64,000 bases of DNA from an uncultured beta proteobacterium (GTDB taxonomy: Bacteria; Pseudomonadota; Gammaproteobacteria; Burkholderiales; Burkholderiaceae_C): assembly GCA_903873485.1 (NCBI GenBank), contig CAIQOO010000185.1, positions 124,001 to 188,000 of the forward strand. The letters are read 5' to 3'. The position numbers and the translations under genes were made by a program. The first letter of the stretch is position 1. Each line of letters begins with the position of its first letter. Positions 3,814 through 49,098 of this stretch are shown here, piece after piece. The notes under the pieces were generated by a model that worked only from the letters and a program-made list of their open reading frames with translations, did no database searches and was not told the DNA's origin.

Positions 3814-3876
3814 CGCTTCCAGCAGTCAAGTCCTTCGCGCTTTGGTCACGTTGAATGAAAACGATTGATTTTAAAA

Positions 3877-3946
3877 ATAGCTATGCTAAAGATAGCTGTC
3901 AGCGCTTTACCAGCAAGGGCTAGAGGTCTTTTTTACATATAAATCC
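3877..3946 (+). repeat. Dispersed ~70-bp repeat, copy A
   Basis: Copy of the dispersed element described in the findings. It has AGCTAT, an AT-rich spacer, AGCT, four bases, GCGC, ACCAGCAAGGGCT, AGAGG and a T-rich end. It lies between the R-M gene and mntA, in direct orientation. Copy B at 4759 is nearly identical because the whole mntA upstream region is duplicated. Confidence 0.85.
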
Positions 3947-3964
3947 TTGAGTAAGACACGCTCC

Positions 3965-4300
3965 ATGTCAACCTTGCCAGCAGAAGCCCTCGACCAAATG
4001 GTCAACATCATCGTCAGCGAAGTTGACCCGGAAACCGTCATCCTGTTTGGCTCGCACGCCAGGGGCGATGCCAGACCGGATTCTGACGTTGACCTGATGG
4101 TGATTGAGCAGGCACCTTTTTCAGCGCAACGCAGTCGCCGTGCAGAAACTGCCCGTCTGTCGATGGCGCTGCGCGACTTTCCGTTTGCCAAAGACATCCT
4201 GCTCTACAGCCGCGACGAATTCGACTACTGGAAAGATTCCCCGAACCATGTGGTAGGCCGTGCCCAGCGCGAAGGAAAAGTGCTTCATGTCAGACCTTAA
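3965..4300 (+). CDS. mntA: MntA-type nucleotidyltransferase antitoxin (MNT domain)
   Basis: A 111-aa minimal nucleotidyltransferase. The signature GSHARGD followed by DSDVD is intact: Gly29-Ser30 and the two metal-binding Asp41 and Asp43. Proteins of this type modify and neutralise the HEPN RNase encoded beside them (polyadenylylation of HepT by MntA in the characterised pairs). ATG at 3965 was preferred to TTG at 3947 because the duplicated copy at 4847 conserves the ATG and its immediate upstream bases but not the TTG. The gene overlaps hepT by 14 bases. A truncated second copy lies at 4847, downstream of hepT. Confidence 0.85.
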   Translation: MSTLPAEALDQMVNIIVSEVDPETVILFGSHARGDARPDSDVDLMVIEQAPFSAQRSRRAETARLSMALRDFPFAKDILLYSRDEFDYWKDSPNHVVGRAQREGKVLHVRP

Positions 4301-4721: not shown

Positions 4722-4758
4722 CACTTCCAGCAGTCAAATGAATACCATTGATTTCAAA

Positions 4759-4828
4759 GCAGCTATGCTAATAATAGCTACTAGCGCTTTACCAGCAAGG
4801 GCTAGAAGTCTTTTTTATATATAAATCC
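4759..4828 (+). repeat. Dispersed ~70-bp repeat, copy B
   Basis: Second copy in the defence block, in the same orientation as copy A and at the same distance before the truncated mntA copy. The duplication starts with the shared CTTCCAGCAGTCAA just after the stop codon of the preceding gene in both places (about 3817 and 4724). Copy B was therefore probably carried along by a local duplication rather than inserted independently. Confidence 0.85.
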
Positions 4829-4846
4829 TGCAGCCAAGCACGCCCC

Positions 4847-5041
4847 ATGTCAACATTGCCAGCAGAAGCCCTCAACCAGATGGTCAGCATCATCGTCAAC
4901 GAAGTTGACCCGGAAACCATCATTTTGTTTGGCTCGCACGCCCAGGGTGGCGCCAGGCCGGATTCTGGGCGCATTGCCCAGTCGAGGCTTATGCCAACGA
5001 CGGTTTTTTTGAACACCACGGATCAACAGCGCAGAGGATAA
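4847..5041 (+). pseudogene. Truncated second copy of mntA (nucleotidyltransferase)
   Basis: The first 41 codons closely match mntA at 3965 (MSTLPAEAL, then EVDPET and LFGSHAQGGARPDSG). Just after DSG the similarity stops, so the two metal-binding aspartates of the DSDVD motif are lost and the frame runs on for about 23 unrelated codons. Arg-Gly-Asp of the motif is also changed to Gln-Gly-Gly. The upstream repeat and gene border are duplicated too. No partner HEPN gene follows; the next gene is on the opposite strand. It is most simply a decayed tandem duplicate that cannot transfer nucleotides. Confidence 0.8.
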
Positions 5042-5050
5042 AGCGGCAGC

Positions 5051-5410
5051 TTAATTCGGGTTTTCAAAAAACAGGTAGTTCGAGCCGTAGTCGCTGATCT
5101 CGAAATAGACCTTTTTTTCCCCTGAGTCCACGACAAAGTTCAGGTTGGCATCAAACACGCCATAGCCAAAACGGTAGGCGCGCGGCTTGCCGTCTTCGGT
5201 CCCCATGGCCGTACTGAGTTTGTCGATCTTGATAAAGCGGCGCACCAGCTTGTCACCGGCATAAAACTCCAGCACGCCATTGGTGCCGGTCCAGTTCTGA
5301 ATGTCGCGGCTGATCTTGTTCTGCTGTTCCTGGGTGCAGGCATTCAGAAGGAAAAGGGCTGCAGCCCCCGCCAGCACTGCGCTGACAGCTCTATATTGAA
5401 TAGCATTCAT
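5051..5410 (-). CDS. Hypothetical lipoprotein
   Basis: A 119-aa protein of unknown function. It has a lipoprotein signal peptide with the lipobox LNAC (Cys25). The mature part is a small, probably beta-rich domain containing GVLEFYAGDKLVRRF and YGVFDANLNFVVD. I do not recognise the family. ATG at 5410 overlaps the rlmB stop by four bases, so it is probably the second gene of an rlmB operon. Its signal-peptide hydrophobic core is encoded by copy H of the dispersed repeat (5348-5407), in the same frame as copy I in the Sco1 gene. Confidence 0.7.
   Translation of the reverse strand: MNAIQYRAVSAVLAGAAALFLLNACTQEQQNKISRDIQNWTGTNGVLEFYAGDKLVRRFIKIDKLSTAMGTEDGKPRAYRFGYGVFDANLNFVVDSGEKKVYFEISDYGSNYLFFENPN
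5348..5407 (-). repeat. Dispersed repeat, copy H (inside lipoprotein gene)
   Basis: Minus-strand copy lying wholly in the signal-peptide coding part of the 5051-5410 lipoprotein. It reads GCTATT, AGAGCT, GTCA, GCGC and GGGGGCTGCAGCC. The encoded peptide is A-V-S-A-V-x-x-G-A-A-x-L-F, very like that of copy I. Confidence 0.75.
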
Positions 5411-9990: not shown

Positions 9991-10154
9991 GGTTTGTCTC
10001 CTTCGTTGTTGTGGCGCAATGATGCCACGTTACTGGCAGCCGGTCGGACTTGACCCGACAGCACAATAGACACAGTTGCCACACCCAAGGAGGACGAGAT
10101 CGTTGGCTGCTGTACCGCGTGGAACGGGGCTTGCTTAATCGGCCCTTTTTCTAA

Positions 10155-10218
10155 GCACTTTCGGGCTGTAGCCCTTGCTGGTCAAGCGCAGTTAGCTACA
10201 TTATAAATAGCTATTTTC
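10155..10218 (-). repeat. Dispersed repeat, copy C
   Basis: Minus-strand copy in the lutA-kdp gap. It has AATAGCTAT, an AT-rich spacer, TAGCT, AACT, GCGC and ACCAGCAAGGGCT followed by ACAGCCC. It shares the ACCAGCAAGGGCT block with copies A, B, D and L. Confidence 0.85.
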
Positions 10219-23841: not shown

Positions 23842-26800
23842 TCAACGGCTGTGCTGACCAAAACCGCCGCCGCCCGGCGTGTGGATTTCAAACACATCGC
23901 CTGCCGCCATCTCGGTCTGGCCAATATGGCCCAAGGTCTCGATGCTGCCGTCAACCCGCAGCACCCGGTTGATGCCCGGCTGGCCCGGCTGCCCGCCGGC
24001 CATGCCAAAAGCGCCGGCTACCCGGCCGTTGGACAAGATGCCGGCCGTCATCGGCTGCAGAAAGCGCAGTCGGCGCACGCCACCGTTGCCACCCGGCCAG
24101 CGCCCTGCCCCACCCGAACCCTGCCGAATCTCAAAACTCTCCAGCCGCACCGGAAAGCGAAACTCCAGCACCTCGGGGTCGGTCAGACGCGAATTGGTCA
24201 TGTGGGTTTGCACCACGCTGCAGCCATTGAAGCCGCCCACCACACGACCGTCAGCGTCAAACACCGCACCGGCACCCGAGCCGCCCGAGATGGTTTCGTA
24301 ATACTGGTGCTGCCCGTTGCCAAAGGTGAAGTTGTTCATGGTGCATTGGCCGGCCGCCATGCTGCCAAGCGCGCCATACAGCGCATTGGTGATGCAGCTT
24401 GAGGTTTCCACATTGCCCGCCACCACCGAGGCCGGCGGATTCGGGTTGAGCATGGAGCCGGCCGGAATGATGACCCTGAGCGATTTCAGGCAGCCGGCGT
24501 TAAGCGGAATGTCGTCACCCACCAGGGTGCGAAACACATACAGCACCGCCGCCATGCAGACGGCGGTGGGGGCATTGAAGTTGTTGGGCTGCTGCGCGCT
24601 GGTTCCGGTAAAGTCAATTTCGGCACTGCGCGCTGCCGCATCAACCCGAATTGCCACACAAATCTGCGCGCCGTTGTCGAGCGCCAGCGTGAACTGGCCG
24701 TTTTTGAGGCGGGTGATGACCCGGCGCACCGCCTCTTCGGCATTGTCCTGCACATGGCCCATGTAGGCCTGAACGACGGCCAGGCCAAACTGATCGACCA
24801 TTTTGCGCAATTCCTGCACGCCTTTTTCATTGGCGGCGATCTGCGCTTTCAGGTCGGCCATGTTTTGCTGCGGGTTGCGACTGGGGTAGCGGCCCGCTTG
24901 CAGCAGCGCCAGCATCGCCGCCTCTTGCAGCACGCCGCTTGCAACCAGCTTGAAGTTGTGAATCTGCACCCCTTCTTCTTCTATGCAGACAGAAAACGGC
25001 GGCATCGAACCCGGCGTGATGCCGCCAATGTCGGCATGGTGGCCGCGCGAGCCGACATAAAACATCGGCTCTTTGGATGCCGCCAGATACACCGGCGTGA
25101 TCACCGTGATGTCGGGCAGGTGGGTGCCGCCGTGGTACGGGTCATTGAGCACATAGACATCGCCGGGCAACATCCGGCCGGCATTCCCGGCAATCACCGT
25201 CTTGATGCTCTCGCCCATTGAGCCCAGATGCACCGGCATGTGTGGTGCGTTGGCGATCAGATTGCCAACTGCGTCAAACAGCGCGCAACTGAAATCGAGC
25301 CGCTCCTTGATATTGACCGAGCAGGCGGTGTTTTGCAGTTGCAGGCCCATTTGTTCGGCTATGTTCATGAACAGGTTGTTAAATACCTCCAGCAGCACCG
25401 GGTCAGCGCTGGTTCCTGATGCAAATGTAATAGCACGCTGCGCTTGCCTGACAAGGGCCAGATGGCTAAATGATGTGATACTTGCGGCCCAGCCAGGCTC
25501 TACCACGGTGGTGGCGTTTTGCTCGGCAATGATGGCCGGCCCGGGCACCATGTCACCGGCTTGCAGCTCGTCGCGCCAGACCAGCAGCGCCTGATGCCAC
25601 TGGCCGCCCGAGTACAAACGCACCGTTTCACGCACCACGCCGCTGGCCTGCAGGTCGCGCGGCGGGTTTAACCGATGGCTGATTTCACTCGGCGCGTCCC
25701 CGGCTATCACCGCTTCAACCGACAGCGCCTCCACCACCAGTGCCCGGCCCGGCAGCAAAAAGGCAAAACGCTGGCGGTAGGCGACCTCAAAGCGCTCGGT
25801 GATCTCGGCGAGGCTGCCAAACGGCACGATCAGTGCCGAGTCGCTGCCGGCATAGCGCAAATGCACCCGGCGCAGCACCTGCACCGCAGCCGCTTGCGCA
25901 CAGGCCGCCGCCGGGCCGGTGGCGGCGGCATCGCCTGCCTGCTGGCGACGCAACGCGGCTGCCGCCGTTTGTGCCAGCGCGTCGATTTGGCGGGCCAGTT
26001 GCGACACGGTCTGGGCGTTCAGCGGGCGCTCCACCGCCTGCTCGCGCATCAGCGTCTGATCCGCCAGGCCCATGCCATAAGCGCTCAAAACCCCGGCCAG
26101 CGGATGCACCAGCACCCTTGTCATGCCCAGAGCATCAGCTACCAGGCAGGCGTGCTGACCACCGGCGCCGCCAAAACATTGCAGGGTGTAGCGCGTCACG
26201 TCATAGCCGCGCGCCACCGAAATCTTTTTGATGGCATTGGCCATTTGCTGCACGGCAATATTGATGAAGCCCTCGGCCACGTTCTCTGGCGCACGACCGG
26301 TTTGCGCTGCCAGCACGCCAAAACGCTCAAGCACCACCGCGCTGTCGAGCGCCTCATTGGCGCCTGGCCCAAACACCCTGGGAAAGTGGCGCGGCTGCAG
26401 CTTGCCGACCATCAGATTGGCATCGGTCACCGTCAGCGGGCCACCGCGCCGGTAACTGGCCGGCCCCGGATTGGCCCCGGCACTCTGCGGTCCGACCCGA
26501 AAGCGCGCGCCGTCAAAAGCCAGGATCGAGCCGCCTCCGGCCGCCACGGTGTGGATGCTCATCATTGGCGCGCGCATGCGCACACCGGCTACCAGGGTTT
26601 CAAATTCGCGCTCAAATTCACCGGCATAGTGGCTGACATCGGTCGAGGTGCCGCCCATGTCAAAGCCGATCACCCGCACCGGGCCATCAAACCCTGCCGC
26701 CGGGCTGCCAGCGCCAAACGCCAGCTCGGCGGTGCGCGCCATACCGACAATGCCACCGGCCGGGCCGCTCAAAATCGCATCCTTGCCGCCAAACGCATGG

Positions 26801-27567
26801 GCATCGGCCAGGCCACCGGACGACTGCATGAACAGCAGCTTGACACCGGGCATGTCGGCCGCCACCTGCGCCACATAACGCTTCAGAATCGGCGACAAAT
26901 AGGCATCGACCACGGTGGTGTCACCCCGGCTGACCAGCTTCATCATCGGGCTGACCTGATGCGAGACGCTGATTTGCGTAAAACCCGCCTGTTGCGCCAG
27001 CCGTTTCGCCGCTTGTTCATGCGCGGGGTAACGGTAGCCGTGCATAAAAACAATGGAAACACTGCGCAGCCCTTGCTGGTATTGCGCTTCTAGCTCTGTT
27101 TTCAATAGTAACTGATTGAGCGGCTGAAGCATTTCACCATGCGCTCCGACGCGCTCTTGCGCCTCTACCACAGCGCAGTACAGCAACTCGGGCAGCACGA
27201 TATGGCAGTCAAACAGGCGTGGCCGGTTTTGATAGGCAATCCGCAGCGCATCCCGAAAACCGCGCGTGATGACCAGCAGCGTTGGCTCGCCCTTGCGCTC
27301 GAGCAGCGCATTGGTGGCCACCGTGGTGCCCATCTTGACGCATTCGACCCGGTCGGGGGTGACCGGCTCACCTGGCTGCAAACCCAGCAAATGGCGAATG
27401 CCCGCCACGGCCGCATCGCGGTACTGCTCGGGGTTGTCTGACAGCAGCTTGTGGGTCACCAGCGTGCCGTCGGGGCGTTTGCCGACGATGTCGGTAAAGG
27501 TGCCGCCCCGGTCAATCCAGAATTGCCAGCGCTGGTCGGGTCCGGATATGGCGTTTTTGGCTGGCAT
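23842..27567 (-). CDS. 5-oxoprolinase / hydantoinase HyuA-HyuB fusion
   Basis: About 1241 aa, probably ATP-dependent 5-oxoprolinase (5-oxo-L-proline to L-glutamate); a hydantoinase or related lactamase is possible. The N-terminal HyuA-type half contains [13 protein letters not shown] (phosphate-binding) and [15 protein letters not shown]; the C-terminal HyuB-type half begins near [20 protein letters not shown] and ends GTPGGGGFG-like ([10 protein letters not shown]). Both halves in one chain match full-length oxoprolinases. ATG 27567 was used; an in-frame GTG at 27582 overlaps the stop of a 63-codon upstream frame and is a real alternative. Two copies of the dispersed repeat lie inside the frame (27066-27110 and 25422-25480); the second falls near the junction of the two halves. 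Confidence 0.88.
25422..25480 (+). repeat. Dispersed repeat, copy M (inside the 5-oxoprolinase gene)
   Basis: A diverged plus-strand copy: GTAATAGC, then GCTGCGC, CCTGACAAGGGCC, AGATGGC and TAAATGAT. It lies antisense within the 5-oxoprolinase gene, near the junction of the HyuA- and HyuB-like halves, and is read as [14 protein letters not shown]. It uses the same frame as copies J and K. The weakest of the listed copies. Confidence 0.5.
27066..27110 (-). repeat. Dispersed repeat, copy L (inside the 5-oxoprolinase gene)
   Basis: Sense-strand copy inside the 5-oxoprolinase gene: ACTATTG, AGAGCT, AGAA, GCGC and ATACCAGCAAGGGCTGCG. It is read as [15 protein letters not shown] at about residue 155-168 without disturbing the frame. 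The reading frame differs from that used by copies H and I. Confidence 0.7.
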
Positions 27568-29009: not shown

Positions 29010-29079
29010 ATGTTGCTACATTAAGTAGAGCTGACAGCGCAGTACCAGCAAGGGCTGGAGGCCGATTTGTCATAAATTT
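29010..29079 (+). repeat. Dispersed repeat, copy D
   Basis: Plus-strand copy in the gap after the aor operon, just touching the stop codon of the 29078-29395 gene: GTTGCTACAT, TAGAGCT, GACA, GCGC, AGTACCAGCAAGGGCT, GGAGGCC and a TCATAAATTT end. Confidence 0.85.
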
Positions 29080-29683: not shown

Positions 29684-30979
29684 CTAGCGCCTGCGCTGAT
29701 CCTGCGCCCCCGACCAGTCGCCCTGCCCTTGCGCCGAAGCCAGGTAAGCCTCCATCAGCCGGGTCGGGTCTTGCTTGAGGGTGTCTTTCCAGCGGCCGAG
29801 CCGCACCTGACCTTCCACCAGGCCGCGCATCACGCCGACATGCTCGGTCCAGCCGACCGAGTTGCAGCCCACCAGCACATCGTCCTTGAACTGCAGGCTC
29901 AAATGCCGGCCGGCTGCCCGGTCGGTCAGTTCCACATGGTCGCCACCCGGCACGCCCTGCCAGTCGCCAAAGCTGGCCGAAATCAGGCCCAGGGTGTCGA
30001 GCACGTTGATCTGCGTCACCCCTTTCAACTCGGCGTGGGCCGGTTTGCCACGCCCAAAGGCGACCATGTTGGTGGCTGCAATGCGCGCCTGCTCGGCTGC
30101 ATTGGGCTGAATGGCGCTGACCATCATCTTGCCTGACACTTTGTCAAAGGCCTCGGCACAGTCACCGGCGGCAAAAATGCCCGGCACATTGGTTTGCAAA
30201 TGCTCGTTCGTCAGCACACCGAGCAAACAGGTGATGCCGGAGTTTTCCAGAAATCCAATCGCCGGGCGCACACCGGCAGCGCTGATCACCAGGTCGGCCT
30301 CCATGGTTTTGCCGTTCGATAGCCTGACCGTCAGCGGCTGGCCTGGCGTGATCGACTCGACCTTGGTGCGGGTAAAGACTTCCACGCCCTTGGACTCGCA
30401 CCAGTCGCGGATCATGCCGCCAGCGGTTGGCCCCATCATGCGCGGCACCATGCGGTCGCCCATTTCAACCACGCTCAAATGCACGCCGCGCGCTGCGAGC
30501 GCCTCCATGATGATGCAGCCAATAAAACCGGCGCCAAGCTGCAGCACGCGGGCACCAGGCTGGGCCAGCGCGGCAATGGCGCGGGCATCTGCCAGCGTCC
30601 AGCAAGCATGCACGCCATTTGACTGAATGCCGGGAATCGGCGGGCTGACCGGGTGCGAACCGGTGGCAATCAGCAGGGTGTCGAAACAGATGCTGTTGCC
30701 GTCCTTGAATACTACTGTTTTAGTAGCTATCTGCACAGACTGGGCAAGGGCTTGAAGCCTATTTATCTTTAAATCCTGAAAGTGGGTCGGGTTTTTGCGC
30801 AGGTAGCTGCCGGCCTCGTCGATGTCGCCCATCAGCAGGTAGGGAATGGCCATGCGCGAGTAGCTCGGCTCCGGCTCGTCGCCAATCAGGGTGATGCTGT
30901 CGTTGGGGCTGAGCTTGCGGATGGTTTCTGCCGCAATGACACCGGCGGGACCGTTGCCGAGAATGACGTGGTGGGTCAT
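29684..30979 (-). CDS. aorC: FAD-dependent oxidoreductase subunit of aldehyde oxidoreductase (AorC-like)
   Basis: A 431-aa pyridine nucleotide-disulfide oxidoreductase-type flavoprotein. The N-terminal dinucleotide-binding site is ILGNGPAGVIAAETIRK, a second one is LQLGAGFIGCIIMEALAARG, and VPGIFAAGDCAEAF is the FAD-binding third motif. In the AorABC enzymes of betaproteobacteria the flavin subunit passes electrons to NAD+ (or from H2). Positions about 69-90 are encoded by dispersed-repeat copy J, giving LKINRLQALAQSVQIATKT between the first FAD motif and the rest. It lies downstream of aorB in the same operon. Confidence 0.85.
   Translation of the reverse strand: MTHHVILGNGPAGVIAAETIRKLSPNDSITLIGDEPEPSYSRMAIPYLLMGDIDEAGSYLRKNPTHFQDLKINRLQALAQSVQIATKTVVFKDGNSICFDTLLIATGSHPVSPPIPGIQSNGVHACWTLADARAIAALAQPGARVLQLGAGFIGCIIMEALAARGVHLSVVEMGDRMVPRMMGPTAGGMIRDWCESKGVEVFTRTKVESITPGQPLTVRLSNGKTMEADLVISAAGVRPAIGFLENSGITCLLGVLTNEHLQTNVPGIFAAGDCAEAFDKVSGKMMVSAIQPNAAEQARIAATNMVAFGRGKPAHAELKGVTQINVLDTLGLISASFGDWQGVPGGDHVELTDRAAGRHLSLQFKDDVLVGCNSVGWTEHVGVMRGLVEGQVRLGRWKDTLKQDPTRLMEAYLASAQGQGDWSGAQDQRRR
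30708..30775 (+). repeat. Dispersed repeat, copy J (inside aorC)
   Basis: Plus-strand copy within the minus-strand aorC: TTTTAGTAGCTATCTGCACAG, then GGGCAAGGGCTTGAAGCCTA and TTTATC. Only the GCGC box is changed (GCAC). It remains in frame and is read in the same frame as copies K and M. Confidence 0.8.
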
Positions 30980-37737: not shown

Positions 37738-40170
37738 ATGAAATTGCCCAGCAGGCGTAGTATTGACCCCATGCAATTCAACTTTCGGGCGTGGCATTCT
37801 CTCAAGGCACGCGTCACCCTCGCGACCCTGGCCATTTTTCTGGTCAGCTTGTGGAGCTTGTCGTTTTATGCCATGCAGGCACTGCACACCAACATGCAAG
37901 ACGAGTTCAGCACCCGGCAGCGCACCACCGTGTCGCTGCTGGCGGGGCAGCTTGATCAGCGCTTGAATGAACATTTGCAATGGCTGCAACAGGTGGGCAA
38001 CGAAATCGGCATCGGGCTGCTTCAAGACTCCGGCGCCTTGCAGGTGCATCTGGACAATCGTCCGATTCTGCGCAAGCTGTTCAATGAGGTGGTGGTGGTG
38101 CTCAATGCCGAGGGTCAGGCCATTGCCGAACTGCCCCGCAACGCCGGGCGCGTGGGCATCGGGCACCTTGATGTGCCAGCCGTCAGCACCGCCTTGCAGC
38201 AGGGGCATGCATCAATTGGCATGGTGTACCGCGATGCGCACCAGGCTATGCCGATGTTTGCCATGGTGGTGCCGGTACATGACCACAATGGCCGGGTGAC
38301 GGGCGCGCTCGCCGGACTGACCAACCTGGGCCAGCCCAATTTTTTGCGCATCGTTACCGACACGCCCTACGGCAACAGCGGCAGCTACCTGCTGCTTGAT
38401 CCACAACAGCGCCGCATCATTGCGGCCAGCGACAGCGCCCGCATCATGACGCAACTGCCCGCCGCCGACAGCAAAGCGGCACCGGACCGCTGGGTCACCG
38501 GACTTAAAGGCTCCCGGATCAGCATCAACTTGCAGGGCGTTGAAACCCTGGCGGCGGGCGCAATCGTGCCCGGCACCGGCTGGATTCTCTGGGCCGAGTT
38601 GCCCACCGACGAAGCATTTGCCCCGCTTCGCGCCAGCCAGCAGCGCCTGCTGCTGGCCACCCTGCTGTTGAGCCTGCTGGTGGCTGGCTGGAGCTGGTGG
38701 CTGCTGCGCACACCGGTGGTGCCGGTATTGACCCCTGTCAATCCGCCCGCAGAACCTGGCCCGCCGGTGTCGCCACCGCCAGCCGTGGTAGTGCCGGTGC
38801 CAGACGAAATAGGTCAACTGGTCAGTGCCTTCAACCTGCTGCTGACGCGGCTGGCACAGCATGCCAGGGCGCTGACCCAAAGCCAGACCATGCTGGCGCG
38901 CACCGAGGCCATGACCCATGTCGGCAGTTGGGAGTGGGATGTGGCCAGCCAGACCGTAACCTGGTCGGACGGCTTGTTTAGCCTGTTGGGGGTGAACCCC
39001 GCCGACGGTGCACTCCCGTTGGCCGACCAGTCCGGCTATTACGAACCAGGCGATTTTCAGCGGCTAAAAGACGCAGTGGCGACAACGCTGGGCACCGGTG
39101 CCCCCTACACCCTGGAACTGCGCGTGATTCGTGCCGACGGCATTGAGCGCATTTGTCTGGCAAGCGGTCAGGCCGAATCGGGACCGGACGGGCAGGTGCT
39201 GCTGGGGTCGCTACAAGACATTACCAAACTGAAACAAACCGATTTGAAACTGCAAATCGCGGCCAGCGTCTTTGACCACGCGCATGAAGGCATCACCATC
39301 ACCGATGTGCAGGGCACCATTTTGGATGTGAACAAGGCGTTTTGCCGCATCACCGGCTACAGCCGCGAAGCCGTGCTGGGGCAAAACCCGCGTGTGCTGA
39401 AGTCCGAACGGCAAGATACCGCTTTTTACCAGGCGCTTTGGCACGATTTGAAGCGATCTGGCCACTGGCGCGGTGAAATATTAAACCGGCGCAAAAACGG
39501 CGAGGTGTATGCCGAATTGCTCAATATCAGCGCGGTGCGTGACGAGCATGGCACGGTGTGCCAGTATGTCGGGCTGTTTTCAGACATTTCGCCAGGCCGG
39601 ACGGTCGAAGACCGGGTGCGCCAAATGGCGCTGTTTGATGCCCTGACCGACTTGCCCAACCGGCGACTGCTGGCTGACCGGTTCGGCCAGACGATGCTGC
39701 TGAACCAGCGCAACGGCCATTTTGGCGCGGTCATCTGGCTCGACCTGGACAACTTCAAGCCAATCAACGACACCCATGGTCATGCCACCGGCGACTTGCT
39801 GCTGCTCGAAGTGGCACGCCGCCTGAAGGCTTGCGTGCGCCAGGTGGACAACGTGGCGCGGACTGGCGGCGACAATTTTGTGGTGGTGCTCAGCGAACTC
39901 GACGCTGAAGTGCAGTCTTCTGCCGAACGAGCCAGGTTTTTGGCCGAAAACGTTCGCCAGAGCCTGGCCGGTCCTTATATGTTGCCGCTCAAACACCTTG
40001 GGCGCCCCGACACTCTGGTTGAATACCGCTGTAGCGCCAGCATTGGCGCGACCCTGTTCGGCCCGACCGAAACGAACCAGGATTTGGTGTTCAAACAAGC
40101 CGAGCGCGCCATGTCGCAGGCCAAGGAGGCCGGTCACAACCGCGTGGTGTTTTTCCAGCCACCGGCCTGA
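37738..40170 (+). CDS. Membrane sensor with Cache-like, PAS, PAS and degenerate GGDEF domain
   Basis: About 810 aa. Membrane helix about 27-50, a periplasmic Cache-like sensor (about 55-290), second helix about 300-322, and a Pro-rich linker. Two PAS domains follow (about 385-500 with VGSWEWDVASQTVTWSDGLF, and 505-630 with ITDVQGTILDVNKAFCRITG). The GGDEF domain spans about 640-805. Its signature is Gly710-Gly-Asp-Asn-Phe (GGDNF), so the usual glutamate is replaced. The c-di-GMP inhibitory site RxxD (RQVD) five residues before it is kept. It may bind but not make c-di-GMP. ATG 37738 or 37771 could start it; no strong ribosome-binding site decides. Divergent from the partner-switching operon. 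Confidence 0.85.
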   Translation: MKLPSRRSIDPMQFNFRAWHSLKARVTLATLAIFLVSLWSLSFYAMQALHTNMQDEFSTRQRTTVSLLAGQLDQRLNEHLQWLQQVGNEIGIGLLQDSGALQVHLDNRPILRKLFNEVVVVLNAEGQAIAELPRNAGRVGIGHLDVPAVSTALQQGHASIGMVYRDAHQAMPMFAMVVPVHDHNGRVTGALAGLTNLGQPNFLRIVTDTPYGNSGSYLLLDPQQRRIIAASDSARIMTQLPAADSKAAPDRWVTGLKGSRISINLQGVETLAAGAIVPGTGWILWAELPTDEAFAPLRASQQRLLLATLLLSLLVAGWSWWLLRTPVVPVLTPVNPPAEPGPPVSPPPAVVVPVPDEIGQLVSAFNLLLTRLAQHARALTQSQTMLARTEAMTHVGSWEWDVASQTVTWSDGLFSLLGVNPADGALPLADQSGYYEPGDFQRLKDAVATTLGTGAPYTLELRVIRADGIERICLASGQAESGPDGQVLLGSLQDITKLKQTDLKLQIAASVFDHAHEGITITDVQGTILDVNKAFCRITGYSREAVLGQNPRVLKSERQDTAFYQALWHDLKRSGHWRGEILNRRKNGEVYAELLNISAVRDEHGTVCQYVGLFSDISPGRTVEDRVRQMALFDALTDLPNRRLLADRFGQTMLLNQRNGHFGAVIWLDLDNFKPINDTHGHATGDLLLLEVARRLKACVRQVDNVARTGGDNFVVVLSELDAEVQSSAERARFLAENVRQSLAGPYMLPLKHLGRPDTLVEYRCSASIGATLFGPTETNQDLVFKQAERAMSQAKEAGHNRVVFFQPPA

Positions 40171-40230
40171 TGCTATTTATTAAATAGCTAGCTGCGCAGG
40201 TGCAGCAAGGGCTAGAGGCCAATATCCTCA
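40171..40230 (+). repeat. Dispersed repeat, copy E
   Basis: Plus-strand copy starting directly after the stop codon of the GGDEF gene: GCTATTTAT, AAATAGCT, AGCT, GCGC, TGCAGCAAGGGCT, AGAGGCCAATATC. It may lie in the 3' untranslated region of that gene. Confidence 0.85.
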
Positions 40231-40282
40231 CTATTTTGTGGCACCGAAACTGGCTTTGCAGTGCCCCGGCTGGCCAGTTGCT

Positions 40283-43237: not shown

Positions 43238-44695
43238 TCAGAAAACAGGGTCCATTTTGGTCCTGACCGCCTCGAACACCTGCCAGAACGTGGCCTCCTG
43301 GGTGGTGCAGAAGTTGATGCGCATCAGCGTGCTGGGTTGCCGGCTGGCGTGAAACAGCGAGCCAGGCGCCAGCAGATAGCCGACATCAAGCAGGCGCTGG
43401 GCCAGCACATCGGTGTCAACCCCGGTATCGACCCAGCCAAACAGGCCTGCTGGGGGTGCCGCAAAAGTGCAGCCTGCGGCCTGCGCCAGCTTGACACTGC
43501 GCCCACGCGCCTGTTCGAGCCGGCGGTACACCTGCTGGGCGTGGCGGCGCAGTTGACCCTGCTCGATGCACCAGGCCAGCGCCTTCTCTAATAGCGCCGG
43601 AGTGGTCAGTGTGGCCAGCAGCTTGGTGTCGAGCAGTTGCTCAAACAAGGCGGTCGGTGTCGCCATAAAGCCCACCCGCCAGCCAGGCACCAGGATTTTG
43701 GAAAAGCCGCTGACATAAATCGTGCGCTGCAAGCCGTCCAGCGCACTCAGGCGGGTGGCGTGCTCCGGGGCCAGGTGGCTGTAGGTGTCGTCTTCAACAA
43801 TGTGGAAGTTGTGCTGGCTGGCCAGTTGCAGCAAACGGTGCGCGCTGCCCGGACTCAAGCAATAGCCGGTCGGGTTATGCAGCACGCTGACGCTGACAAA
43901 CAGCTTGGGCGCATGCAGCGCGCAGTAGTGCGCCATCACCGCCAGATCAGGCCCGTCGGGTCCGCGCGGCACCGGCAAAATGCGCATGCCCAGGGCATCG
44001 AGCCGGGCAAACTCGATCGCCCAGCCAGGCTCTTCGACCATCACGCAGTCGCCTGCGCGCAGCAAAGTTCGGCTGACGATGTCAAGCGCATGGGTGGCGC
44101 CGACGGTGGTGATGATGTGCTGGGGGCTGGCCGGGATAGCCAAGGCATTCAACCGGCCGGCCAGTGCCTGACGCAGGCCCAAGTCACCGGCTGGCTCGCC
44201 ATACTGCAAGGAAAACGCCTGCAACTGCGCGCCGCTGGTGACCCGGCGCACGGCAGCCGACAAAAAGCGGGTTTCCAGCCAGTCGGGCGGAAACGCCCCC
44301 AGGCCGGGCTGCGGCTTGTCTGCTTGACCATAGAACATGCCGCGTATCAACGCAACAGCGTTGACTGGCACATGCCGGGCTTCAACGCCAGTTTTTGCCG
44401 CCGATCCCGGCCCTTGATTGACTCCTGAATTTGTAGCTGTCTGCGCTTTATCTGTATGGTATAGAGACCTATTTCTTATGTAAAAGCCGCGATTTTTCCG
44501 GGCTTCTACCAAACCCTGCGCCAGCAACTGGTCATAAGCCGCCACCACGGTGCTGGCACTTACACCCTGTTGCTGGGCACATTGCCGCACCGAGGGCAGC
44601 CGGTTGCCGGGAGCCAGCAGGCCGGTCGCAATACGTTCGGTCAAGCGCAGCGCCAGTTGCTTGACCAGGGACTGGGAGGTGGTTTTGAGCAACAT
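43238..44695 (-). CDS. MocR-type transcriptional regulator (GntR HTH fused to aminotransferase domain)
   Basis: A 485-aa PLP-dependent regulator. The winged helix (1-72) reads APGNRLPSVRQCAQQQ, GVSASTVVAAYDQLL, LVEARKNRGFYI. The fold-type I aminotransferase-like domain (about 115-485) has VEEPGWAIEFARLDALG, VSVLHNPTGYCL and the PLP lysine in VSGFSKILVPGWRVGF. The linker at about 69-90 is formed by dispersed-repeat copy K. It is divergent from the lysE-type gene at 44886, which it may control; direct repeats in the shared gap are possible sites. Confidence 0.9.
   Translation of the reverse strand: MLLKTTSQSLVKQLALRLTERIATGLLAPGNRLPSVRQCAQQQGVSASTVVAAYDQLLAQGLVEARKNRGFYIRNRSLYHTDKAQTATNSGVNQGPGSAAKTGVEARHVPVNAVALIRGMFYGQADKPQPGLGAFPPDWLETRFLSAAVRRVTSGAQLQAFSLQYGEPAGDLGLRQALAGRLNALAIPASPQHIITTVGATHALDIVSRTLLRAGDCVMVEEPGWAIEFARLDALGMRILPVPRGPDGPDLAVMAHYCALHAPKLFVSVSVLHNPTGYCLSPGSAHRLLQLASQHNFHIVEDDTYSHLAPEHATRLSALDGLQRTIYVSGFSKILVPGWRVGFMATPTALFEQLLDTKLLATLTTPALLEKALAWCIEQGQLRRHAQQVYRRLEQARGRSVKLAQAAGCTFAAPPAGLFGWVDTGVDTDVLAQRLLDVGYLLAPGSLFHASRQPSTLMRINFCTTQEATFWQVFEAVRTKMDPVF
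44428..44485 (+). repeat. Dispersed repeat, copy K (inside the MocR regulator gene)
   Basis: Plus-strand copy within the minus-strand gene: TTGTAGCT, GTCT, GCGC, TTTATC, GGTATAGAGACC, TATTTCTTATGTAA. It encodes RNRSLYHTDKAQTATNS in the linker just after the DNA-binding domain, in the same frame as copy J in aorC. Confidence 0.75.
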
Positions 44696-45500: not shown

Positions 45501-45599
45501 ATTGGGTGACAGACCAATATTTGCGGAGCAAATTTGCTCTGTTACCAACTGATCGTCGGATGTCCGGCTGTTGACATTGGCTGACAGACTCATATTTTC
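45501..45599 (+). repeat. Imperfect 24-bp direct repeat with central palindrome
   Basis: ATTGGGTGACAGACCAATA (first 19 of 24 bases, 45501-45524) recurs as ATTGGCTGACAGACTCATA (45576-45599), 20 of 24 bases identical and 75 bases apart. Between them GAGCAAATTTGCTC (45526-45539) is a perfect 14-base palindrome. There is no T-run, so it is not an obvious terminator. It may be a regulatory region for the DMT transporter gene. Confidence 0.55.
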
Positions 45600-45600
45600 A

Positions 45601-45656
45601 GCAAAATCACCCTCCAGCCCTTATTCAACAAGCGCAGACAGCTATGACTATCAGAG
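45601..45656 (-). repeat. Dispersed repeat, copy F (overlapping a start codon)
   Basis: Minus-strand copy: GATAGTCATAGCT, GTCT, GCGC, TTGAATAAGGGCT, GGAGGGT. The start codon of the DMT transporter (45644) lies within it, so the element contributes the translation start and the first residues. Confidence 0.75.
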
Positions 45657-46591
45657 CAACAAACAACAAGCACGAAACCCTTGGGCTATGGCTGAGCGTG
45701 CTGGGGGTGTGCATTTTTGCCGTGACGCTGCCGATGACGCGGCTGGCCACCGGCACCGTTGACGCACCGCAGCTCTCGCCCTGGTTTGTCACCTTTGGGC
45801 GGGCCGCGCTGGCCGGCGCTTTGTCGCTGGCATTTTTACTGATGACCGACTCGGCCCTGCCGACACCCCGGCAACGCAAGCCACTGCTCATGGCACTGCT
45901 GGGCAATGCCATTGGCTACCCCTTGTTGCTGGGTTTTGCCTTGCGTCAGGTCACCTCCGGCCATGCGGCGGTAATCACCGCGCTGCTGCCCTTGGCCACC
46001 GCTGCCGTGGCAGCGCTGGTGCTGCACCAGCGGGCCCGGCTAAGTTTTTGGCTGTGCGCTGGCTTGGGCAGTGGGCTGGTGGTGGTTTTTTCGGTGCTGC
46101 GGGTCTATCAACAGGGCCACGGCTTTGGTTTTGAGTGGGCGGATGTGCTGCTGCTCGGCGCGGTGCTGGCTGCTGCCATCGGCTATGTGTATGGCGCCCA
46201 GGTCACCTACGCGCTGGGGGCCGAGCGGGTGATCTGCTGGGTCTGCGCGATGGCACTGCCGCTCACGGTGCCCGGCACCTGGCTGTGCTGGCCCACCCAC
46301 AGCGTCAACCCCTCGGCCTGGCTCGGACTGCTGTATGTGGGCGTGTTTTCGATGTGGGCCGGTTTTTTTGCCTGGTACCGCGGCATGGCCATGGGCGGTG
46401 CCCTGCGGGTCAGCCAAACCCAACTGTTGCAACCGTTCTTGAGCATTCTGGCTGCCGTGCCGCTGCTGGGCGAGCCGCTGGAGCTGATCACCCTGGGCTT
46501 TGCACTGACCGTGATGGCAACCGTTTTTCTGAGTCGGCGGCTGTCATCGCCAGCCCCCGCTTTCAACCCTGCGCCAAAGGACACTTCATGA
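45644..46591 (+). CDS. EamA/DMT family transporter
   Basis: A 315-aa inner-membrane protein with ten predicted helices in two EamA repeats (about 12-150 and 165-300), typical of drug/metabolite exporters. Examples are VCIFAVTLPMTRLATG in helix 1 and LYVGVFSMWAGFFAWYRGMA in repeat 2. ATG 45644 lies in repeat copy F and has no clear ribosome-binding site. The stop overlaps the aminotransferase start (46588-46591), which suggests the exported compound is linked to amino-acid metabolism. Confidence 0.88.
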   Translation: MTIRATNNKHETLGLWLSVLGVCIFAVTLPMTRLATGTVDAPQLSPWFVTFGRAALAGALSLAFLLMTDSALPTPRQRKPLLMALLGNAIGYPLLLGFALRQVTSGHAAVITALLPLATAAVAALVLHQRARLSFWLCAGLGSGLVVVFSVLRVYQQGHGFGFEWADVLLLGAVLAAAIGYVYGAQVTYALGAERVICWVCAMALPLTVPGTWLCWPTHSVNPSAWLGLLYVGVFSMWAGFFAWYRGMAMGGALRVSQTQLLQPFLSILAAVPLLGEPLELITLGFALTVMATVFLSRRLSSPAPAFNPAPKDTS

Positions 46592-48258: not shown

Positions 48259-48364
48259 CCCGTTCGGGCTGAGCTTGTCGAAGCCTTCGAGAACCCTTCG
48301 AGAACCCTTCGAGAACCCTTCGAGAACCCTTCGAGAACCCTTCGACAAGCTCAGGGCGAACGGG
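48259..48364. repeat. REP-type inverted repeat enclosing five 11-bp tandem units
   Basis: Left arm 48259-48283 begins CCCGTTCGGGCTGAGC and continues TTGTCGAAG. The right arm 48340-48364 (CTTCGACAAGCTCAGGGCG onward) is its complement with two mismatches. Between them CCTTCGAGAAC is repeated exactly five times (48284-48338). The arm core TTCGACAAGCTCAG is a widespread proteobacterial intergenic repeat. Confidence 0.9.
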
Positions 48365-48486: not shown

Positions 48487-49098
48487 TCAACCGGCTTGCC
48501 GCAACAACATCCGAATATCGGCCGCCGTCAATTCGGGCTGGGTGCCGTAGCGGGTAAACAGCCGCAACTTGCCCTTGGTGTCATAGACATAGCTGCCCGC
48601 CGTGTGGTCGATGGTGTAGCTGGTCGGTGTCGGGCCATCGACTTTTTTGTAATACACCTTGTAATCCTTGGCCAGCGCCGCTGTTTTTTCCGGGCTGGTG
48701 TGCAGTGCCAGAAAGCTCGGGTCAAAGTTCTCCATGTAGGCCTTGAGCATCTCGGGCTTGTCGCGCTCGGGATCGACGGTGACAAACAGTCCCTGCAAGC
48801 GTTCGCCATCTTTGCCCAGCAGCTTTTTGATCGCCACCATCTCGACCATTGAGGTCGGACACACATCGGGACATTGGGTGTAGCCAAAAAACACCATGAC
48901 CACTTTGCCGTGAAAGTCCTTGAGTGTTCTGGCTTGGCCATTGTGGTCAGTCAGGGCAAAATCTTTGGCGTAATCGGCACCCGTAATGTCGATCGCAGTG
49001 AATTTCTGCGCGCCCTCGGAACAAGCAACAAATAGGCTTGCAGCCCCCGTCCAGACTGCGCTGATAGCTATAAATTTCAGAGCTTTTCGTTTGTTCAT
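48487..49098 (-). CDS. SCO1/SenC family copper chaperone for cytochrome c oxidase
   Basis: A 203-aa thioredoxin-fold lipoprotein that delivers copper to the CuA site of subunit II. The copper ligands are the two cysteines of QCPDVCP and the histidine of TIDHTAGSYVYD. Lipobox LFVAC follows the hydrophobic core. The signal peptide core (AISAVWTGAASLF) is encoded by dispersed-repeat copy I. ATG 49098 was used; ATG 49107 and 49110 are also possible. Last gene of the ctaA-ctaB-sco1 run. Confidence 0.92.
   Translation of the reverse strand: MNKRKALKFIAISAVWTGAASLFVACSEGAQKFTAIDITGADYAKDFALTDHNGQARTLKDFHGKVVMVFFGYTQCPDVCPTSMVEMVAIKKLLGKDGERLQGLFVTVDPERDKPEMLKAYMENFDPSFLALHTSPEKTAALAKDYKVYYKKVDGPTPTSYTIDHTAGSYVYDTKGKLRLFTRYGTQPELTAADIRMLLRQAG
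49028..49083 (-). repeat. Dispersed repeat, copy I (inside sco1)
   Basis: Minus-strand copy in the signal-peptide coding part of sco1: AGCTCTGAAATTTATAGCT, ATCA, GCGC, GTCTGGACGGGGGCT, GCAAGCCTATTT. The frame is identical to that of copy H. Confidence 0.8.

Follow-up and report, generated by a model that had tools for sequence, protein, structure and literature searches.

A dispersed motif with genome-specific wording in export signals and other coding sequences of a Rhodoferax-like bacterium and its relatives

The closest described systems are the uptake sequences of the Neisseriaceae (DUS) and the Pasteurellaceae (USS). According to excerpts of the papers cited here, known uptake sequences are 10-12 nt long (PMC2346458), differ as dialects between species (PMC3630211), occupy permissive positions and are absent from recently acquired genes (PMC2397512). 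The excerpt of PMC2397512 also describes neisserial uptake sequences as under-represented in a gene class to which genes with signal peptides belong, and the DUS receptor is, in the excerpt of PMC3868556, the minor pilin ComP. The USS are dispersed in and between genes and show an orientation bias inside genes (PMC2346458, in part). REP sequences are mainly intergenic palindromes that go together with a RAYT transposase. Rickettsia palindromic elements (RPE) are palindromes which are found in frame inside many unrelated proteins, and their insertions lengthen the protein.

An excerpt of PMC5217627 reports spaced motifs in Rhodoferax ferrireducens T118, Polaromonas naphthalenivorans CJ2 and Acidovorax ebreus TPSY. 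R. ferrireducens ranked first for significant motif pairs (140), and ATAGCT(N)22CAAAAG and GCTTAT(N)5AAGCG were given as potential novel motifs. Parts of these resemble, by look only, the motif of this study; neither a complete element nor dialects are described in the excerpt, and signal peptides and growth in place do not come up there. The open-access papers searched, among which subscription journals are mostly missing, gave no account of the complete element, of its dialects or of its occurrence in signal peptides, and nothing that links uptake sequences with Comamonadaceae.

The window is the whole stretch of 64,000 nucleotides analysed here. It belongs to a Rhodoferax-like genome of 4.70 Mb in 243 contigs (the host genome, G000), the nearest Sco1 among named genomes being that of Rhodoferax or Comamonadaceae. 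According to the original prediction, the signal peptides of two unrelated lipoproteins in the window lie inside copies of one repeat and use the same frame and phase of it. The seed pattern has exactly two matches in the window, at 5362-5392 and 49041-49071, both on the minus strand, and none in 100 shuffled windows. A position matrix built from 150 copies detects 13 copies above 0 bits, with these two (H and I) included (Table 1). Copy H encodes MNAIQYRAVSAVLAGAAALFLLNAC in the lipoprotein gene and copy I MNKRKALKFIAISAVWTGAASLFVAC in Sco1, and as both read xxA GCT xTC AGC GCA in codons, their frame and phase are identical; pattern, matrix and codons agree in this with the prediction. The mature proteins are unrelated as far as tested, since Sco1 was identified by Pfam PF02630 (E 2.5e-44) and the lipoprotein ORF gave no Pfam match at 1e-5. 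The hydrophobic core of the lipoprotein, said to end directly before LNAC, is indeed encoded by the repeat, but ALF does not immediately precede LNAC because the protein reads ALFLLNAC.

Table 1. Motif copies above 0 bits and the two founding host genes in the window.
Feature	Position	Strand	Score and remarks
Motif copy	3878..3943	+	66.3 bits
Motif copy	4760..4825	+	56.2 bits; within 216-nt duplication of 3870-4085
Small lipoprotein gene	5051..5410	-	Signal MNAIQYRAVSAVLAGAAALFLLNA followed by C
Motif copy H	5341..5406	-	57.1 bits; codons 2-24 of the lipoprotein gene, frame +0
Motif copy	10148..10213	-	55.9 bits
Weak motif copy	25416..25481	+	28.5 bits
Weak motif copy	27046..27111	-	22.1 bits
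Motif copy	29013..29078	+	73.4 bits, the highest of the window
Motif copy	30709..30774	+	52.9 bits; host gene on the minus strand
Motif copy	40170..40235	+	67.7 bits
Weak motif copy	44419..44484	+	32.9 bits
Motif copy	45594..45659	-	61.5 bits
Motif copy immediately 3' of the Sco1 stop codon	48421..48486	-	65.3 bits
Sco1 gene	48487..49098	-	Start MNKRK picked by comparison with orthologues
Motif copy I	49020..49085	-	62.3 bits; Sco1 signal peptide, frame +0

Two further structures were seen in the window. The stretches 3870-4085 and 4752-4967 are duplicates of 216 nt with 86% identity and one motif copy each, and the second adjoins a short ORF whose start resembles, by eye, a nucleotidyltransferase. 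At 48269-48356, downstream of Sco1, units of 11 nt (GAACCCTTCGA) form an array whose ends are inverted.

The best 150 of 3190 candidates from a model search of the host genome give the consensus TGCTATtaAATatATAGCTGtCAGCGCAngnnGGACAAGGGCTAGAGGCCnATTTGncaTAaAAA; as 150 candidates were scored, this number is a lower bound on the copies. A degenerate pattern finds 650 copies in the whole genome, 303 and 347 by strand, as compared to one match (1 + 0 by strand) for the reversed pattern used as control. The motif is thus like the DUS in having hundreds of dispersed copies on both strands. It differs from DUS and USS, whose short core has about 9-12 nt, in that its conserved positions extend over at least 35 nt and the complete motif over about 65 nt. 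Among 240 genomes of the same family a related core with at least 20 matches is found in 48, which represent 32 of 141 genera (both numbers by hand tally), the highest control count in any of the 240 being 11. With stricter filters the model built here matched 33 of 80 genomes, the host genome included, and all 33 are of one genus. Presence within genera is patchy: the species of g53 have 2, 235 and 1 matches, those of g47 32, 1 and 0, those of g104 236 and 4, and those of g160 125 and 3. Such wide differences among the species of one genus suggest that the motif may be gained and lost quickly.

An independent sample, 800 kb of the genome G032, holds 125 copies, and a Markov null of equal length gave one hit above the threshold. 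Of these copies 74 are fully in genes, 9 partly and 42 between genes. Even spacing was rejected, as the spacing is random (CV 1.03, null 0.84-1.18). The motif shares with the USS its dispersal in and between genes and an orientation bias within genes. However, USS of about 10 nt are biased to gene termini, and such a bias was rejected here because the positions within genes are flat by decile. The intergenic copies prefer convergent gene pairs (16 of 42, compared to 38 of 334 gaps).

Frame +0 of the motif (ATA GCT GTC AGC GCA ...) encodes A-I-K-x-I-A-V-S-A-x-x-(T/A)-x-A-x-G. It is one of the two stop-free frames of the consensus, the other being -1. The 74 fully intragenic G032 copies are distributed over frame +0 (26), frame -1 (31) and the rest (17), so the stop-free frames hold 57 of them. 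The frame agreement of H and I is therefore largely expected, and as an argument the shared frame is weak. In the host genome, codon usage of the flanks assigns 52 of the 150 copies to genes or gene edges, with 29 internal, 16 called N-terminal (2 doubtful) and 7 called C-terminal (1 doubtful); this sample leans to H and I because its first 28 copies were picked by a pattern drawn from them. A Pfam scan covered 50 of the 52 host proteins; of the two left aside, one was another cut of an ORF already included. The majority of the coding copies lie, like RPE, in frame in ordinary and unrelated proteins. Pfam hosts include Hsp70, a topoisomerase, Tex, DNA polymerase III gamma/tau and a PurL-type enzyme, and further a CoaBC-type flavoprotein, a CCA-adding-type enzyme (two copies), a Kdo transferase, PRAI and CobU.

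Some single hosts are described here for completeness. The gene of the CCA-adding/poly(A) polymerase kind (L106) contains its two motif copies at C74:71075 and C74:71933. At C167:42372 (L071) the peptide encoded by the motif is tandemly repeated in the surrounding protein (RELSAQVQQGLEADLALISGNQGKLLQNKELLAQVQQGLEADLALF). The copy at C38:5165-5231 (L060) encodes a signal-like stretch which precedes, by eye, a periplasmic-protein-like sequence; this ORF has an in-frame stop just upstream, no start and no Pfam match at 1e-5.

The 16 N-terminal calls of the script (14 'Nterm' and 2 'Nterm?') were checked by hand, which left six of 150 copies (numbers 0, 21, 29, 48, 68 and 77). Their hosts are Sco1, the lipoprotein, LolA (MRQIAILLIAISAVPAWA followed by AGL), DsbD, a protein at C185:67149 and a DUF934 protein, and a simple export rule calls all of them exported except the last. 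Seven calls were dropped by eye: number 13 has an in-frame stop upstream and no start, and for 14, 36, 74, 106, 134 and 135 the start codon apparently lies at or after the copy. Copy 54, which reads by eye as a membrane segment of DsbB and is no signal, and the copies 109 and 139 ('Nterm?'), which are far inside genes, were not counted. Four G032 copies are entirely intragenic and have their anchor before codon 28. The rule assigns a signal to three of their genes; one of the copies is weak, and two, both in genes with a signal, use frame -1.

Of the 668 genes in the G032 sample, 117 (17.5%) are exported by this rule. When the six host copies and the four G032 copies (one weak at 18.9 bits) are combined, 8 of 10 N-terminal copies are in signal peptides (p 2.8e-5), with a codon-28 cut that was chosen after the list had been seen and a partial copy at codon -5 omitted; without H and I the count is 6 of 8 (p 5.8e-4). 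Widening the cut to codon 45 adds four G032 copies, two of them in genes called exported, one falsely by eye. Random placement in the first 28 codons of G032 genes predicts 1.06 copies for signal genes and 5.0 for the others, where 3 and 1 were seen; exported N-termini thus carry copies and other N-termini rather avoid them, though the numbers are small. That N-terminal copies are mostly in signal peptides supports the original prediction in part. It had also been proposed that one reading frame of the repeat is a ready-made export signal. Frame +0 can indeed form the signal core, and it recurs at further export signals of the host genome (LolA, DsbD and the protein at C185:67149), but it is not the sole frame of that kind, since the two G032 copies in frame -1 are in genes with a signal by the same rule.

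We compared orthologous signals with and without the motif. The Sco1 set comprises 105 parsed of 110 loci from two overlapping collections with 85 distinct signals: 64 loci score above 10 bits, 22 between -20 and 10, and 19 at or below -20. The Sco1 signal has 25 residues before the Cys in 42 of the 64 motif loci and 24-26 residues in 12 of the 19 loci without the motif, 25 being the commonest length in both groups. In the other two families, for which 22 of 30 LolA and 19 of 30 DsbD loci were parsed, 14 and 7 loci exceed 10 bits. Their signals are not clearly longer: with intermediate scores left out, LolA signals have 18-26 residues with the motif and 15-22 without (6 loci), and DsbD signals 25-32 and 23-29 (6 loci), respectively. 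Outgroup Sco1 proteins from other families of the Burkholderiales, 18 of 19 loci being parsed, have different signals with scores of -69 to -91, so that distant Sco1 proteins with the same signal but no repeat were not found among them. Random 150-nt windows have a median of -77, a 99th percentile of -40 and a maximum of 45, the latter presumably a real copy. Several low-scoring relatives exceed this random level, in our own reading as if their copies had decayed.

Of 16 lipoprotein loci, 10 have an N-terminus that the model matches, that of the host genome among them; in one the match falls into two weak pieces. The loci L199, L201, L202 and L203, the last of them from another family, have ordinary signals. 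To the eye L192 and L196 appear alike, though the model matches neither. By eye, the start codon lies inside the motif in L190 and L192-L194, and the motif of L198 immediately precedes the Cys in a different register.

If coding copies were inserted elements, host proteins should differ in length at the copy. G032 coding copies were aligned to loci of the host genome, and 15 pairs with at least 50% identity and an alignment spanning the copy were retained. Twelve have no net gap at the copy and the remaining three have net gaps of 6, 2 and -16; a clean insertion of about 20 residues was seen in none of the 15. The G032 orthologue of the gene that contains the copy at 30709..30774 has one at identical codons, gap-free. 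In 12 of 15 pairs the host-genome site likewise exceeds 18 bits, so that these pairs date the site and the prior state is not visible in them. The three presence/absence pairs consist of one with a 6-residue gap in a poorly conserved stretch and two gap-free ones whose G032 copies are weak (18.6 and 20.6 bits).

Seven chosen hosts were compared with solved homologues, FolC and guanine deaminase being picked because they looked conserved. The motif lies on residues alignable with the homologue in FolC, guanine deaminase, PRAI, Hsp70 and the CCA-adding enzyme. The length change at the copy is +4 residues for FolC, 0 for guanine deaminase and PRAI and +6 for the CCA-adding enzyme, and Hsp70 is shorter; FolC and its solved homologue both have ASFAxxExARG in the motif region. 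Inserts at the copy are present in two of the seven, CobU (about 19 residues) and Tex (about 30). Copies inside genes thus resemble those of the DUS at permissive places (PMC2397512, in excerpt), with CobU and Tex as exceptions. Most motif copies tested neither lengthen the protein nor keep a palindrome, which distinguishes them from RPE.

The departure of coding copies from the intergenic consensus was also determined by codon position, with the seven copies dropped above (13, 14, 36, 74, 106, 134 and 135) excluded. Second positions depart most in all four full sets from two genomes, and third positions depart least or are tied. The third-minus-others difference is positive in four of four sets and outside the null only for G032 in frame +0, and for six signal and membrane copies, a small set, the departure is largest at first positions. 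That second positions are most divergent would follow if native residues resisted the motif; a neutral insert decaying under protein selection would show most departure at third positions.

The consensus differs among four genomes. The 35-nt core is TAGCTGnCAGCGCAnnnnnGACAAGGGCTAGAGGC in the host genome (136 copies), TAGCTnCTTGCGCTTGTTnnAnAAGCGCTAGAGGC in G010 (50), TAGCTnnTnGCnCTTnnnnnATAAGGGCTAGAGGC in G024 (40) and TAGCTnCTTGCGCAnnnnnnACGGGGGCTAGAGGC in G032 (36 passing the same filter). From these four genomes we scored 15 signal copies, located at related sites in Sco1, LolA, DsbD and the lipoprotein, with each of the four matrices. The own genome fitted best in 14 of 15, in five of the 14 by less than 3 bits; the exception is the Sco1 of G010, which fitted G032. 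The matrix of the host genome excluded signal copies, and those of the other three genomes are absent from the sets by coordinates; the G010 rows are exact matches only and the G024 matrix comprises 40 of the 100 rows listed. As a yardstick, ordinary copies, each left in its matrix, were assigned to their own genome in 116 of 136, 47 of 50, 31 of 40 and 29 of 36 cases. Copies at the same site in different genomes hence mostly follow the local dialect, and dialects are a feature of the DUS as well (PMC3630211, in excerpt). The original prediction of a recruited mobile repeat is mostly unsupported by these data, as signal lengths are similar with and without the motif, clean insertions were not seen in the 15 pairs, and signal copies follow the dialect of their own genome.

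Atypical codon usage was taken as a stand-in for acquired DNA in 80 bins of one genome, G032. Copy density is 0.65 per 10 kb in the lowest quarter and 1.87 elsewhere (one-sided permutation p 5e-5, Spearman 0.48), comparable to the low density of DUS in acquired DNA (PMC2397512, in excerpt). The central pair of the potential stem is G-G in 141 of 150 copies of the host genome and 101 of 125 of G032, so that the hairpin is not the conserved feature. Most of 24 hand-picked rows from G010 and G024 are palindromic, often with a perfect stem, and the central pair is G-C in G010 and C-G in G024. RNAalifold on 28 copies gave five pairs, none of them changed on both sides; a conserved hairpin was rejected on this result and on the broken stem in the host genome and G032.

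Several explanations have to be weighed. Convergence of alanine-rich signals without any repeat would fit the simple composition of signal cores, but it is hardly conceivable in view of 57 and 62 bits at two sites, the empty shuffles, identical codons, ATA-GCT among them, that recur at unrelated signals, and the motif-free Sco1 of other families (18 of 19 loci parsed); signals that lack the motif score far lower. The idea behind the original prediction, a mobile palindromic element of the RPE kind that inserted in frame and was domesticated as export signal, gains from the hundreds of copies, many of them intragenic in stop-free frames, from the lipoprotein start codons inside the element in four loci (by eye) and from the inserts in CobU and Tex. 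In-frame copies in dozens of genes had led to such an early reading. It was dropped on the dialects, the 15 pairs without a clean insertion, the similar signal lengths, the G-G pair in a stem that keeps no hairpin and the scarcity in atypical DNA, and we now consider it very unlikely.

Old mobile repeats, some of them inserted in genes, might instead have been homogenised by short-tract ectopic gene conversion, signals included. Dialect matching at fixed sites, sites common to two genomes and the two inserts speak for this, whereas the copies in FolC, guanine deaminase, PRAI and Hsp70 lie on alignable residues without element-sized extra length, and in each of the four full sets the departure is strongest at second codon positions. 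The tracts would measure 35-65 nt, which is very short for homologous conversion. We regard this explanation as unlikely, but as the strongest of the alternatives. Selection for binding by a chromosome-organising or regulatory protein, and not for uptake, is less probable still. A long and strongly conserved core, the preference for convergent gene pairs and random spacing would agree with it, but the patchy presence within genera (as in g53), the absence from many relatives and the scarcity in atypical DNA suggest no essential role, and a need for sites hardly explains growth in signal peptides and enzyme cores.

It is probable, on the other hand, that the motif arises and is kept in place by substitution and not by insertion. 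The basis for this is the copy number, the mostly gap-free coding alignments, the signal lengths, the dialect matching and the scarcity in atypical DNA. Against it count the CobU and Tex inserts, the 12 of 15 pairs with the motif in both genomes and a codon-position effect that leaves its null in one of four full sets. DNA uptake sequences are likewise marked by dialects, by growth in place where codons are permissive and by low density in atypical DNA (excerpts of PMC3630211, PMC2397512 and PMC2346458), which leads to an uptake-like reading. Whether the motif is a dispersed uptake-sequence-like recognition motif, grown in place and worded differently by genome, is in our judgement evenly balanced; the 35-nt core and the motif of about 65 nt, the under-representation of neisserial uptake sequences in the gene class with signal peptides and the small size of the dialect test (15 copies, four genomes) speak against it. 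Uptake or recombination of DNA as the driving force is suggested more tentatively, by analogy. Cells would favour DNA with the local dialect in uptake or recombination, alleles closer to the consensus would spread, and each copy would be pulled to the consensus wherever the protein permits. Signal-coding DNA is permissive because nearly any string of Lys, hydrophobic and then small residues works, and strings of this kind are what the motif specifies in its two stop-free frames; signal peptides would therefore have been colonised by the motif and not built from an inserted one. The arrow of the original prediction is thus probably reversed: the genome-wide motif wrote itself into signals, and signals did not recruit a repeat.

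The DUS have 10-12 nt and ComP as receptor; the motif has a 35-nt core and occurs in another bacterial family. Because of its length it was not filed as an uptake sequence. With the same caution as for the driving force, the Comamonadaceae might be a third family with its own dialected, genome-wide self-recognition motif, far longer than DUS and USS, which rewrites signals and enzyme cores in place and in concert with the species dialect. If this is true, export signals and parts of enzymes owe their sequence to a force at the level of DNA that has no relation to what the proteins do. It would affect a large family of environmental bacteria, in which orthologous signals change together with intergenic repeats, and would add a further independent case of the uptake type to those of Neisseriaceae and Pasteurellaceae, with a simple test of why uptake sequences exist. 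Even if gene conversion is the cause, it would be unusual for signal peptides to evolve concertedly with hundreds of dispersed repeats.
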